Origin: Candidatus Gracilibacteria bacterium
Lineage (GTDB): Bacteria; Patescibacteriota; Gracilibacteria; BD1-5; UBA2023
Assembly: GCA_028687475.1 (NCBI GenBank)
Contig: JAQUAB010000001.1
Span: 1 to 64,000 of the forward strand
Reading direction: 5' to 3'
Length of the DNA stretch: 64,000 bases
The notes under the pieces are model-generated. The model did no database searches and was not told the DNA's origin. It saw only the letters and a program-made list of their open reading frames with translations. Each line of letters opens with the position of its first letter. Position 1 is the stretch's first letter. The position numbers and the translations under genes were made by a program. This document shows positions 20,016 to 26,733 of the stretch, piece by piece.

Positions 20016-21086
20016 TTACTGGAGAAGGTTGATAAATTGTGAGATATAGAGAAGTTTGTTTTTCCCGATTCTCATCGAGGATACGAGATTATTTTCTTCG
20101 AGAATTTGTATATATTTTGTTGCTGTCTGTCTCGTATATCAGAGAAGTTCAGTAAACTCAGTTACGGTCAAGAATGGCTTTGAGAAGAGTATTTTAGTAA
20201 TCTTATGATAATCTAGATTTAACTTCGACATTTCCTCTTCGATCTCTCACATGAGAGTATGGATTTTTATGATTTTCTCAGACGTACTCTTTGCCTGGAT
20301 TATTACTCACTCGAGCATATATATGATAAAGTCACTGTAGTCACCCGTATCACGAGTCTTCGTAAAGAGTTTATAATACTCTTTCCTGTGCTTGTTGATA
20401 TATTCACTGAGAAAAAGTACTGGATAGTCGAGTTTTCCTGACATGATAAGATAGAGGACGTTGAGTATACGACCGGTACGGCCATTTCCATCATAAAATG
20501 GGTGGATAGACTCAAATTGATAATGTATCACTGGCATTTTGATAAGAGGGTCAATGTCATCATTTGATTCATTTATCCATCTTTCGAGATTCGAGAGAAG
20601 TTGCACGATAACATCTTCTCCAGATGGAGGTGTATAGAGGACTTCGCCATATCCGTTTGCAATGACTGTTCCAGGGATTTTTCTCACTCATGGCTTATTC
20701 GGCTCGATGAGTGATTGGGTAGAGATGATCGCATTATATCCAATACCTCACTCTTTCTGTAATCTCTCATATCATGCAAGCATAGCACGATGATAGTGGA
20801 GCACCTCCTTCTCAGGTCATTTTACCGAACTTTCTGGAAGGGCTTCTGATTGGAGTACTTTGAGAGTTGTGGTATTGATATTCTCTATTGCAGATGATTC
20901 GACCGATTCCTTTACAAGAAGTGGTGCTATGAGTATCTCATGGTTTGGTATAAGTTTTACGAGACCATTCAGTTTCGAGAGTTCTTCACTTGCCTTGATA
21001 GCCAGCTTCAGAAATAGCTTCTTATCATACTCGAAATCTCCTGGTAAGAGTGGAAGATGATTGTATGGAATTCTAGGATCGTGCAT
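20016..21086 (-). CDS. Fic-domain protein with C-terminal winged helix
   Basis: A 356-aa Fic protein. The Fic motif HPFYDGNGRTGRI (His195) is complete, so it should transfer AMP or another nucleotide to a protein hydroxyl. Upstream, SSAIEN (64-69) matches the (S/T)xxxE(G/N) inhibitory helix, placing it among class II self-inhibited Fic proteins. The C-terminal 90 residues resemble a winged-helix DNA-binding domain (FLTVTEFTELLGYTRQTATKYI). Three TGA glycines occur. It lies at the 3' end of the modification gene cluster, and its promoter region holds four copies of TTTACATGT, which that DNA-binding domain could recognise (inference). Confidence 0.88.
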
Positions 21087-21396: not shown

Positions 21397-22830
21397 TTAG
21401 CCTAAGTATTTGTTCGCACTATCCTCATCTTCTTCGATAAATATCTCTACCGCTCGTTTTGCCTTTTCGAGGAGTTTTTTCGAAGACTCACGAGCCATAT
21501 GAGAAGCTATAATTTTTTCGGAAATAAGGGATTGGATTGTATCAGGAAGAATAGGGACTTGAATCATTCAAACTTGTTCGTTTGAAATCTTCGGTTGAGC
21601 TGTTCTTGTTTCAAATCTTTCAAATTGAAGTTTTCCAATGATAGATTGTAAAATTAACTGAAGAACGATTGGAAGAACTTCTTTTTTGTTTCTAATACTC
21701 AATTTTCAAGTATTATTTGAAAGATAACAATTGTCAAATTTATCATTTACCAAAGCTGAAGTTCAAACAGATCAAATAGTTGCAAAAATAATATCATCTT
21801 TTGACACTCTTTGTTCATTAGTACGAATGAACGATTTGTCGATATACATAAGCTTATCTTCTCACAGATTTCACGATGAAAAATCCGCTCATCGTAAATA
21901 TGGGATTCACTCATTTTCATTATAAAATTCAGGTGAAATCAATGATCATCTTTGAATTTTACACATTTCAGAGAGTTTTTTTATTTCAAACTTTTTTAGC
22001 TTTCCAAGTAGTTCATCATATTTCGGCTGGAAAAACTCCGCATCACATCGACCAAAAAACTCGACTTCTGAACTCATTTTCTCTGTAATATTTTCCTCGC
22101 TGGGTTTCCAGTTCACGAGTCAGAGTTCAGAGAGGAGGATATTTTCTGCTTCCGCATAGAGGGATTTTGAAAGCTCTCTTTGCTTGTGAGCTTCCCCGAC
22201 AAGCTCAGCTATGGAAGATTGGAAAGTAGGAGATGGGAGAGGGATTTTAAAGTTTCCAACATCTGATACATTTAATTTTGGCTGAACATTTCCACTACTA
22301 AATTTCTGGAATTCGCTTTGCCCATATTTTGATATTAAAAATATAAAAATATATAATTTCAAAACTTGTGGATGATCTGAGAACTTGATGCCAATATTAT
22401 TTTCACTCACAGCAATCGTTCATATTTCGGGAGTAATTATGCTTAATCTTCATACTGTTCAAACTTTAGATAAAACTATATCATCTACTTCAAGATGATA
22501 TTTCTTCATTCTCGCAAACTCACTATCATCAAGAAACATCATTCATGTTTTCGATAAGAAAATATCCTTTACATCAGATATTCTAACAAAAGGGTTGCCG
22601 ATTTGCACATAACTTTCACTCTTTAAAAATGATCCAAATGGTCCACTAAAAACCTTGATTCATAAATCATTCAAACTCTTGGAATCTTTATTTTCAATTT
22701 TTATATACTCAAGACTATAAAATTCTGGATCTAAACGAGATTCATAAATATTACTCACTTCTACAATCGAAATATCCAAATTATATTTTTGGATGAGAGA
22801 AGTGAGGGATGGAGAGAGAGTGGAGGACAT
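21397..22830 (-). CDS. hsdS: Type I-like specificity subunit (HsdS)
   Basis: A 477-aa DNA-recognition subunit with two target-recognition domains. The first spans about 30-170 (DPEFYSLEYIKI, then PFVRISDVKDIF) and ends in a PLPSPTFQSSIAELVGEAHKQRELS coiled spacer. The second spans about 235-420 (FFQPKYDELLGKL, SPEFYNENEG, KDDIIFATIGSVGTSALV) and ends in a matching coiled spacer (LPDTIQSLISEKIIASHMARESSKKLLEKAK). This duplicated TRD-helix layout defines HsdS proteins that bind a bipartite site. It carries about ten TGA glycines. It starts 5 nt after the small membrane gene. Confidence 0.9.
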
Positions 22831-22835
22831 GGGGA

Positions 22836-23267
22836 TTATTTTAGTTTTGCAGATTGTCTTGTAACAAGAATGAAGGACGAAACCGTTGAAAAAATTAGAA
22901 CTAAATTACAGAGAATTATTCCAAGAAATGGGCATAAAGCCCAAAGAATAATGCAATTTACAAGAATCATATATGAAAATATAAAATATATGATTGAAAA
23001 GAGTCAGAATTTAATTGCAAAGATGAATGGTTCTAATAAGTCATCGAGAAGGGTTTTTCTATTGTCATGAATATTTTCGATTTCATATAATTTATTTAGA
23101 TACTTTGATGTTGCAAATACAGCGAAACTTGTCATATAAAATCCCACTATTACAGAAAGAAATGTGAGTAAATTTGCAATTAATTCTTTCTCAATTTTAA
23201 TAGGGAAAAGATATTGAAGAGCAGTTGATATTATTAATATGAGAGTAATTTGAGTAATTAATTTCAT
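22836..23267 (-). CDS. RexB-like four-helix membrane protein
   Basis: A 143-aa protein that is mostly membrane. An N-terminal helix (ITQITLILIISTALQYLF) is followed by a second (FLSVIVGFYMTSFAVFATS) and a basic/acidic cytoplasmic loop (KYLNKLYEIENIHDNRKTLLDDL). Two further hydrophobic stretches (SIIYFIFSYMILVNCIILWAL, GIILCNLVLIFSTVSSFILV) separated by CPFLG come next. Length, helix count and loop placement match the 144-aa RexB channel of phage lambda, though I see no clear sequence identity. One TGA glycine. It overlaps the preceding soluble gene and is followed within 5 nt by hsdS, so it is part of the operon. Confidence 0.6.
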
Positions 23268-24073
23268 GATATCTCATTAATTAGAATATTAAAAACAGAA
23301 TCTTTGTCGTACAGTCCATTTTCATCAGAATCAATATTAATCTGAATTTTATCTATAATACCTTCTGAGTTAAATATTCTATCAAATTTATCATCGTATC
23401 TTCATGTTATTTGTAACTTATCAATAGCACTGTTATCCTTTTGAGAAAAGAAAGATCATATTTTTGATTTTAATCTATCAGACATTTTAGCATCCTGAAA
23501 AGATATCTTTACTTCCATATTTCTAATTAAAGCACCATAATTATTAAAGTCATTAGTTAATTCATCTCATAAAATTCACACACTTGAAAACAAATTTGGG
23601 GTTGCTGATAAATATATTGATTGTATTCAGGTAATGTTATCAAGAAATTCCTCCCTGTTTATGATATTCTTTATTGCTACTTGTTTTCATAATTTCTCTT
23701 GTAAAAATATTTCTATTGTATGTTTCTTTCTGAAGTCGGAAAGAAATATCTTTTGTTCTTTGACATCAATAAGAATAAAAGTTTGCGAATCTCTTTCTAT
23801 CTGATCTACGCTTCTCGGATTATCCTCATCCTGCATACTTGTCCTATTGTAAACAACAGGTGGTCTTGGGAATATATTTCATTCCTCAAAGTATAATGAA
23901 ATATATCGACTTTGATACTCATTCTTATAGATTTTACAATGTGATAAAATTTCTCAAGCGATTTCTTGATTATCTTGTATAACTTCTGGTATTGTTGAAA
24001 AATCATTAATTGTAAATGGTTCATTCCCAATTTTCAGTAGTGCTATAGAAAAGGATTTTTTAGTGCTTCTCAT
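23258..24073 (-). CDS. RexA-like soluble partner protein
   Basis: A 271-aa soluble protein, invisible without UGA = Gly (nine TGA codons). I do not recognise a family motif. The first half has alternating strands (KSFSIALLKIGNEPFTINDF, YQSRYISLYFEEGN), then PRPPVVYN and a FILIDVKEQKIFLSDFR strand pair. A helix-rich middle and a basic C-terminal half (RLKSKIGSFF, RYDDKFDRIF) follow. Size, a cytosolic partner next to a four-helix membrane protein and the strand-then-helix order recall lambda RexA (279 aa) or KwaB/DUF4747-type sensors. It lies between the methylase and the membrane gene, with a 9-nt gap and an ATGA overlap. Confidence 0.6.
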
Positions 24074-24082
24074 ATAATTTCT

Positions 24083-25969
24083 CTATTTTAAAAAGCTAAA
24101 TCCCTGCTCCCTTCCCCACACTTCAAAAGCCTCTGCAATCTGGAGGAGATCAGATTGGAGATTATCTATACTTCGAGAGCTCGCATCGCGATAGACGTAT
24201 TCTCAGGAGTTATTTTTGAATGGGACTTTGGAAGTCGCGAAAAATATCGGGTAATTTTCTACTCGTTTATTAGCATTATCATCCCACTTTTGGAGGAATA
24301 TAACGCTTGTCTTTGTTCCTGTATGAGGTTTGAAACTATTTCACTCGATACCCACGACGGCGAGGATGCGTGCATGATCCATGATGAATTTGCGGATGTA
24401 TTCTTCACTTGTATTGTTGAATACTCATTGTGGAAGTACGAGAGCCAGTCGTCCTCCTGGTCGCACGAAGTTCAGATTGCGTTCGATAAAGAGAAGATGA
24501 CGAGAGATATTGTCGATATTTTTTCCTGTTTTTGGATGTTTTCCGAGTTGGAATTTGGCAAGAGTGGCAGATTCCTTGACCTCTCCAGCAAATGGAGGAT
24601 TCGCAAGGAGGACATCAAAATTGAAGTAGAGATATTCTTTCTTATTTTGCTCGTTTTTCTCATATTCATCGAATTCTGTGAGCAAGTCTTCACTCTTGAA
24701 ATCGACTTTTGTCGTATCTTGCCAAGAAGCACTATCAAGAGAATTTTCTTTGTAGATATGAGATTTCCCATCTCCAGCAATCAGCATCATTGCACGGGCA
24801 ATCTTGGATGACTTTTCATCGAAATCAATACCAAAAAGTGATTGTTTCGCATACGAGGACATCTTTGTGTTTGTCCAGTTATGTTTTTTCTTCAGGTACT
24901 CCATAGTATGGATCAGGAATCCTCCAGAGCCACAAGCAGTATCGATAACTTTTTCCTTTTCTCCTGGCTGCATCATACGAACACACATATCGATCACGAT
25001 ACGAGGTGTGAAATATTGTCATTTTTTACTCTTCGCGACATCAGGTATGAGGTATTCGAAAGCCTCATCGATGACCTGCAGATTAGTACCGAGGAGCTTA
25101 AATGTCTCAAGTTCACCCACGCAGATAGAGAGATGTTCAGGAAGGAGTTTTATGGTATCTGATTTTTCAAATACTCATTTCCATCGTCCTTTTGCTTCTT
25201 CGAAGAGACGAGTTATGTCAGCTTTCGTTTTATTCGCATCTTTCGTTGGAGATTTTCGAAATTCGAGTGGTCTATCAGGATTCTCGATGGATTCTTTTTC
25301 GTCATGAAGTTTCGCATAGATGAGCTTGAATATTTCATCAAAACTATCAAATCCAGAGTTTGCAAGTACGAGTTCCTCGATATTTTCGATAACTTCTTTG
25401 AGTTGTTTTGGCTCTTCGAGATCTGCGAGCATTATACGCCGAGCAAGGACATCATCGACCGTTTCTCAGAATTTTGGGATATCAGCAAGAGTGTCAAAAT
25501 CCTTTGGATATGGACGATAGAGAATGAGGACGGATTTACCATTGGTTGCAACACCAAAAGGCGCACCATCAGCATTGAGATAGCTCTTGAGTTGTTCGAC
25601 ATCGTTTTTCTCATGTGGAGCTTTCACTTCGACCATGAGATGAGGCGTTTCATTATCCTCGGAATAGATCACAATATCCACTCGCTTGGTCTCACGACCA
25701 AAACGGACAGATCTTTCGATATCCACTCGTTCTTTCGGGTACTTATATTTTTTGAGAAGTTCTCGGAGATAGAGTTGTCTCACTATCTCTTCTGGTGCAG
25801 ATTTTTTCTCACTCCAGACTTGTTTTTCCTCTTCTCCGCGTGAGTAACTTTTGAGCCAAAGCTTCCCATCCCGCTCATAAATACGAGTATCAATCTCATC
25901 GATTTCATCTCTCGTGAAAATAGAGAGAGATTCTGCTGGATTGGAAAATATTTTATGTAAGTTGATCAT
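24083..25969 (-). CDS. hsdM: Nuclease-methylase fusion (HsdR_N + HsdM)
   Basis: A 628-aa protein. Residues about 60-160 form an HsdR_N-type PD-(D/E)xK nuclease domain: D98 in RVDIVIY and E114-x-K116 in LMVEVKAP. After a helical linker comes an N6-adenine methylase with GQYFTPRIVIDMCV, the SAM site DTACGSGG (about 343-350) and the catalytic NPPF (457-460). Nuclease plus methylase in one chain and a separate HsdS is the plan of BcgI-type (type IIB) enzymes, and the length is close to BcgIA. No HsdR helicase is present in the window. It begins an operon with the RexA/RexB-like genes and hsdS. Confidence 0.85.
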
Positions 25970-26030
25970 ATAATTATAAATTTTTACTATTCTATAGAAA
26001 CTCCCTTCCCAATCAAATAAAAAAACACGA

Positions 26031-26471
26031 CTACAATCCTCAAAAATCACACTCTACAAAACTCATAGGAATCGCATTTCCTTCATTGATCTCATACATA
26101 GCACAGATGAATTCATCATAATTATCCACATAATCGAAGAGAGTCCCCACTCCTCGTATCTCGTTCACGACAATCTGATGCCAGAAGATGGACTTGTAGC
26201 GCTTGACGTTCACTCATCTGATCTGTGCGAATTGTATCTCTTGTTCATGGCGAAAAAATCCATAATGAAGCACAATCCGCTTGTCGGTGATATATCCTGC
26301 ATAGCGAATTCTCCGGACGAATTCTACGATCAGCCATATCGATAGAATGAATATGAACAGTCCCGTTCCTCATGTCAGATGTTCCGAAGAAACACTAAAG
26401 GCAACGAAAAGAAATATTCAAAAAATAACAGGAGTCATCCAGATAAAAGGCGTTTTTTTGAGAGTGTACAT
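26031..26471 (-). CDS. Membrane PH-domain (bPH2) protein
   Basis: A 146-aa protein with two N-terminal transmembrane helices (IWMTPVIFGIFLFVAFSV, GLFIFILSIWLIVEFV) followed by a bacterial PH-like domain with the usual YITDKRIVLHYGFF entry strand and QFAQIRGVNV. Three TGA glycines. Such proteins are common in CPR genomes and their role is unknown. It is 61 nt upstream of the nuclease-methylase gene on the same strand, with AT-rich sequence between them, so it need not belong to the defence operon. Confidence 0.7.
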
Positions 26472-26733
26472 TAATTTTTCATTTTCTCAGAGATGGAGTG
26501 CCATAATGTATAAAAATGAAATAATAATCCTCCAAACAAGACCTCTAACGTCACAAATTCACTTTTCCTATTTCGAAAGAGGTCGTCTGGATTGCGAGAA
26601 TTATATGAACCAAATATTACAGAAATATTAAATTTTGAAAGATTTTTCTGTTTTTGAACGTTTTCACTTGACTTACATAACATATATTGCATCATTATTT
26701 GTTTTATTCCATGAAACATGATAGGATGAACAT

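Follow-up and report, generated by a model that had tools for sequence, protein, structure and literature searches.

The window (i.e. the whole stretch of 64,000 nucleotides analyzed here) carries two overlapping genes, for a soluble protein of 271 aa and a membrane protein of 143 aa, between the hsdM-like and hsdS-like genes of a probable restriction–modification (R-M) operon. On balance, we favor reading this pair as an exchangeable anti-phage effector cassette in a BcgI/type I-like R-M operon. It is probably a new, interchangeable reserve weapon against phages, since related operons have known or predicted abortive genes at this place. We infer its function only from this slot position, which is the strongest evidence for the pair's role. 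A more specific version, offered tentatively, is that the pair represents an undescribed membrane-acting abortive module that replaces HEPN-like, AIPR, or OLD effectors in a hot-swap slot; the R-M enzyme would guard it, which would make it a membrane counterpart of PrrC.

Gene order and gene borders

TGA is read as glycine in the window (genetic code 25). The genes follow one another along the minus strand in the order hsdM, 271-aa gene, 143-aa gene, hsdS, and Fic, and are given below by ascending coordinate.

20016..21086, minus strand: Fic protein, the next gene past hsdS (PADLOC SoFic, E = 6e-101)
21397..22830, minus strand: hsdS-like specificity subunit, 477 aa (Methylase_S)
22836..23267, minus strand: P0002, membrane protein, 143 aa, with 1 TGA and four hydrophobic segments, of which TM2 is the most conserved
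23258..23267, minus strand: overlap of P0001 and P0002, 10 nt, ATGAAATTAA; ATGA only with TGA as stop
23258..24073, minus strand: P0001, soluble protein, 271 aa, of an undescribed family, with 9 TGA glycines and invariant FEEGN, NPRS, SDxRKK, and GR (compared with one homologue)
24083..25969, minus strand: hsdM-like gene, 628 aa from ATG (HSDR_N_2 and N6 DNA methylase)

The four genes from hsdM to hsdS share a strand, and their junctions measure only 9, −10, and 5 nt, a spacing that fits a single transcript. Code-25 open reading frames and hydropathy confirm what an earlier note on this DNA had described between the methylase and specificity genes, namely a soluble protein with nine TGA glycines and a smaller one with four hydrophobic segments. 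The ATGA overlap that it reported was incorrect, because TGA encodes glycine here and the shared stretch is the longer one given above.

The hsdM reading frame as listed starts at GTG 26050, but the true start is most likely ATG 25969, given that the homologue in a related genome (G039) is also 628 aa long and that DNA identity with it begins at 25975. At the other end of the operon, the SoFic-type gene is possibly a further accessory or cargo gene. Immediately upstream of hsdM, a gene for a 157-aa membrane protein with weak bPH_2 similarity (26031–26504, minus strand) is overlapped by the GTG-start frame and is clear of the ATG start.

The probable host R-M enzyme

The window hsdM joins HSDR_N_2 and N6_Mtase domains in one subunit, with Methylase_S in a separate S gene, and its closest solved relative (best PDB match) is RM.BsaXI. 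BcgI-like (type IIB) enzymes cut DNA on both sides of their site without HsdR. In the HSDR_N domain, the PD-(D/E)xK motif D125..E141xK143 (numbered from the GTG start) is invariant in four aligned sequences, which argues that the operon probably serves restriction–modification and not modification only, with hsdM as a BcgI-like R-M subunit. The earlier label of a modification operon is probably too narrow.

Cargo of the hsdM–hsdS slot in relatives

We surveyed relatives of the window hsdM with the same gene order, and compared the four that are at least 45% identical to it. The slot is filled in all four, with different cargo each time.

G039 (hsdM 85% identical at the protein level): 192-aa protein with RNKFFH, HEPN-like
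G053 (hsdM 57%): 496-aa AriA/OLD-like ATPase (PADLOC AriA 1e-32, Old 3e-25)
G052 (hsdM 57%, split over two contigs): 560-aa AIPR protein (Pfam 1e-38, PADLOC AbiU 1e-24)
G054 (hsdM 45%): 298-aa protein with RNLVMH, HEPN-like

More distant hsdM genes (26–28% by BLAST) have hsdS next door. The G053 operon (L059, 5607–11871) consists of a Mrr-type restriction gene, hsdM, the AriA/OLD-like ATPase, hsdS, and a gene for a 146-aa membrane protein, and its ATPase has a C-terminal RNKIHH.

The comparison with G039 also shows where similarity stops. The two share DNA identity (75%) between 25975 and 24077, which spans hsdM only and ends 6 nt past its stop codon, and hsdS aligns in short pieces only. The GC content is 26–27% in the pair, 41% in hsdM, and 44–45% in rpsB and tsf. 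The end of the identity past the hsdM stop and the AT-rich nature of the pair both suggest that it was exchanged as a cassette behind hsdM.

The same enzyme (41–47%) is also found in viral contigs, a faecal contig, a Klebsiella plasmid, and E. coli chromosomes. In these non-Patescibacteria copies M and S are adjacent, often with a HEPN-like gene of 196–376 aa behind S. The behind-S genes and the slot cargo of G039 and G054 form one connected BLAST cluster, and in their alignment the R and H of a C-terminal Rx4H are conserved. Rx4H is the signature of HEPN RNases, and one cluster protein matches PF18735 at E = 0.01. As the label draws on this motif and a weak Pfam match, it is likely, but not proven, that these slot and behind-S genes encode HEPN proteins.

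Such loci (L071–L080, L066, L069, and L070) have the order M–S, and often a HEPN-like (Rx4H) gene comes next; with it they form a compact three-gene module of R-M enzyme and putative RNase, whose last gene lacks any significant Pfam or PADLOC name. One viral contig departs from this order: in place of hsdS, its hsdM-like gene precedes a gene for an unlike protein of 278 aa (L074, 10073–10909).

A second copy of the pair

Whole-genome searches reveal a homologue of the 271-aa protein in G338, a Patescibacteria genome from another class of the same phylum that uses the standard genetic code (31% identity over nearly the full length, E = 7.5e-33). The order is the same as in the window, with the membrane gene directly downstream and overlapping by 8 nt; it encodes 153 aa with 32–34% identity to the window protein (BLASTP E = 4e-19) and four hydropathy peaks. 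The pair, its overlap, and its order persist between different classes and genetic codes, and its recurrence in this form in a standard-code genome indicates that it is real and beyond chance. Two of the nine TGA glycines (G65 and G224) align with glycine in G338, within the invariant FEEGN and GR.

A co-directional gene for an 820-aa R-M-type protein lies 157 nt downstream of the G338 pair. Reading its motifs (TDG..EFK, DRCAGTG, and ENPP), we take this protein to be type IIG-like, i.e. restriction–methyltransferase-like. Most of the motifs are kept in relatives from Limosilactobacillus plasmids, one of three of which aligns without the N-terminal TDG part. The protein has no family match, and none in common with the window hsdM. 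In both known loci the pair therefore adjoins an R-M-type gene, inside hsdM–hsdS in the window and upstream of the 820-aa gene in G338; with two copies known, few loci underlie the association.

A third copy did not turn up in about 1,330 genome look-ups within the phylum (some genomes repeated). Searches with one or two sequences in phages, plasmids, viral contigs, and 85k genomes yielded no relatives; since the pattern scans are insensitive to distant ones, rarity of the pair beyond Patescibacteria is not established. Some genomes matched the 271-aa protein weakly (E 0.001–0.01), over short parts only, and the pair was absent from two of these loci, L012 and L013. The earlier note had proposed looking for the pair in other code-25 genomes; a copy was found and is R-M-linked, but its genome uses the standard code.

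Properties of the two proteins

By hydropathy, the 271-aa protein has zero hydrophobic segments and the 143-aa protein has four, at 7–23, 29–45, 92–108, and 110–126. The second of these is the most conserved stretch relative to G338 (FLSxxxGFYxTSxAxFxTSKYxxxLY). Neither protein matched a family in Pfam, PADLOC, PHROGs, or NCBIfam, and no catalytic motif was identified in either. Specifically for HEPN, there was no family match, and a motif scan for R[NHD]x3-4H was negative in both but positive in cargo of relatives. The predicted structure of the 271-aa protein alone (pLDDT 34.5) is too poor for fold comparison, such as with the split two-domain fold of RexA and RdgC, and the model of the 143-aa protein (pLDDT 75) has no match at E < 1 in BFVD or PDB.

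Several weak matches were rejected. Those of the 143-aa protein included ones to MscL-like and repeat pilus-like membrane proteins and to a Lactococcus phage (E = 6). The G338 homologue of the 271-aa protein matched DNA_methylase at E = 0.003, below the cutoff and absent from the window protein, and the 153-aa homologue matched a SAVED-TM model at E = 0.09, also below the cutoff; both were taken as chance.

Relation to RexAB and Kiwa

The pair resembles phage lambda RexA/RexB in size (271/143 vs 279/144 aa) and in the four hydrophobic segments of the small protein, as the earlier note had pointed out, and also in gene order, and Kiwa (KwaA/KwaB) likewise joins a membrane protein with a soluble partner in defense. 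The note had also seen no significant sequence identity to either system, and Pfam, PADLOC, PHROGs, and hhalign bear this out. As controls we used lambda RexA and RexB from J02459, RexA relatives from phages and viral contigs, and KwaB from Patescibacteria. The RexA models PF15969, PADLOC RexA, and phrog_12654 detect lambda RexA at 1e-97, 9e-110, and 6e-163, but have no match up to E = 10 in the 271-aa protein or its G338 homologue. Similarly, the RexB models PF15968, PADLOC RexB, and phrog_14878 detect lambda RexB at 1e-61 to 1e-92, and do not match either membrane protein. Patescibacteria KwaB is detected by PF16162 (E = 2.2e-5) and by PADLOC KwaB, neither of which matches the 271-aa protein or its homologue.

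Alignment with hhalign to 10 RexA, 9 RexB, and 4 KwaB sequences gave no signal (P about 0.3 for RexA). Global alignment against decoys gave no consistent signal for RexA, KwaB, or RexB; with RexA, all 65 decoys fell below the G338 homologue (z = 2.8), and the window protein reached z = 0.8. The 143-aa protein, its G338 homologue, and lambda RexB each show four peaks in hydropathy plots, a likeness of hydropathy only. By eye, and as an impression only, the strand/helix order of the 271-aa protein resembles the RexA structure (PMC11077077). Membership of the pair in the RexAB or Kiwa families is thus not supported at the sequence level.

KwaB-family genes (PF16162) are present in four Patescibacteria genomes (L021–L024), in short loci where KwaA is not visible; three of the four have a Pif1/RecD-like helicase reading frame nearby.

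Alternative explanations

A far-diverged RexAB or Kiwa, in which the 271-aa protein would be a RexA/KwaB-like sensor that binds DNA and the 143-aa protein a RexB/KwaA-like ion channel or membrane anchor, would account for the lambda-like sizes, order, and segments, for a strand/helix order that by eye matches that of RexA, and for the score of the G338 homologue above its decoys. We nevertheless consider it unlikely, given that the models which find lambda RexA and RexB so readily return nothing here, that hhalign is silent, and that the window protein itself does not stand out among the decoys. Furthermore, no phage repressor is seen beside the pair, and the model of the small protein is without any structural match.

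The position inside the M–S unit, with its tight junctions, could also be that of accessory R-M subunits, the membrane protein tethering the enzyme via the 271-aa protein so that DNA is cut at entry with no abortive step. An R-M-like gene at the G338 locus agrees with this, and membrane-localized, DNA-targeting defense exists in Kiwa, Zorya, and SNIPE (PMC12904381). We regard such tethering as quite unlikely, because in relatives of this enzyme the slot holds unrelated cargo and the pair is missing, which indicates that the R-M enzyme does not need it; moreover, the R-M-type protein in G338 shares no family match with the window enzyme. Two overlapping, AT-rich genes, one of them for a small membrane protein, that were apparently exchanged as a cassette also recall a toxin–antitoxin-like pair (small membrane toxin and soluble inhibitor) that mainly stabilizes a mobile R-M operon; toxin genes are found in other R-M neighborhoods (PMC3710099), and the window has a Fic gene after hsdS. 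This reading is improbable, as 271 aa would be a large size for an antitoxin, the soluble protein matches no DNA-binding domain, and related slots hold abortive-infection-type genes and not toxin–antitoxin pairs.

Proposed function

If the pair has the anti-phage role, abortive action, coupling to the R-M enzyme, and membrane target that we propose, the R-M enzyme would be the first line of defense and the pair a latent second line behind it. The soluble 271-aa protein would serve as a sensor or latch that keeps the membrane protein in check or sets it off, and it would respond when the R-M complex is blocked, or when its DNA signals invasion. The membrane protein would then disturb the inner membrane, and the cell would be stopped before the phage multiplies. 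The earlier suggestion that the pair senses failure of modification may be right, as it fits the precedent of PrrC in EcoprrI. Slot cargo could also act independently of the R-M enzyme. The broader idea of an undescribed pair that travels with the modification genes agrees with the R-M linkage at both loci and with the defense cargo of the slot, but a family relation to Rex or Kiwa is unsupported.

The cassette reading would define an effector slot within one R-M operon subfamily, filled by HEPN-like, AIPR, and OLD/AriA-like ATPase genes and now by a soluble and membrane pair, and would add a candidate defense gene family to ultra-small recoded bacteria. If the R-M enzyme guards the pair, as it does PrrC, guarding logic would extend from RNA cleavage to membrane attack, and surveying this slot in further genomes would be an inexpensive route to new abortive effectors.

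Comparison with known systems

In contrast to lambda RexA/RexB, with which it has no sequence or profile relation, the pair lies in a chromosomal R-M context with no adjacent phage repressor seen; from Kiwa it differs in its lack of a match to the KwaB models. The host enzyme resembles BcgI/BsaXI-type (IIB) systems in its fused nuclease-like and N6-MTase subunit and its separate S subunit, but here cleavage is predicted from the nuclease motif, and variable cargo lies between the subunit genes.

The linkage of HEPN genes to R-M systems is a known theme, with at least 16 HEPN clades involved (PMC3710099), and PrrC in EcoprrI is the tested case (PMC3710099, PMC3874165, PMC2610378). PrrC is an anticodon nuclease embedded in the type IC R-M operon EcoprrI, where the R-M enzyme keeps it silent until an anti-restriction factor of a phage releases it (PMC2610378, PMC3874165). 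As in EcoprrI, effector genes in the window would lie inside an hsd operon and on the same strand. Unlike PrrC, however, the window has two unrelated genes, one of them membrane-bound, with no ABC ATPase or HEPN domain, and its slot is that between hsdM and hsdS of an HSDR_N plus MTase enzyme, with no separate hsdR seen in the operon. Relatives of the window hsdM carry Rx4H genes in the slot or after hsdS, as in HEPN-linked R-M operons (PMC3710099), whereas the pair, which has no RNx3H-type motif, stands at the place of the HEPN-like gene.
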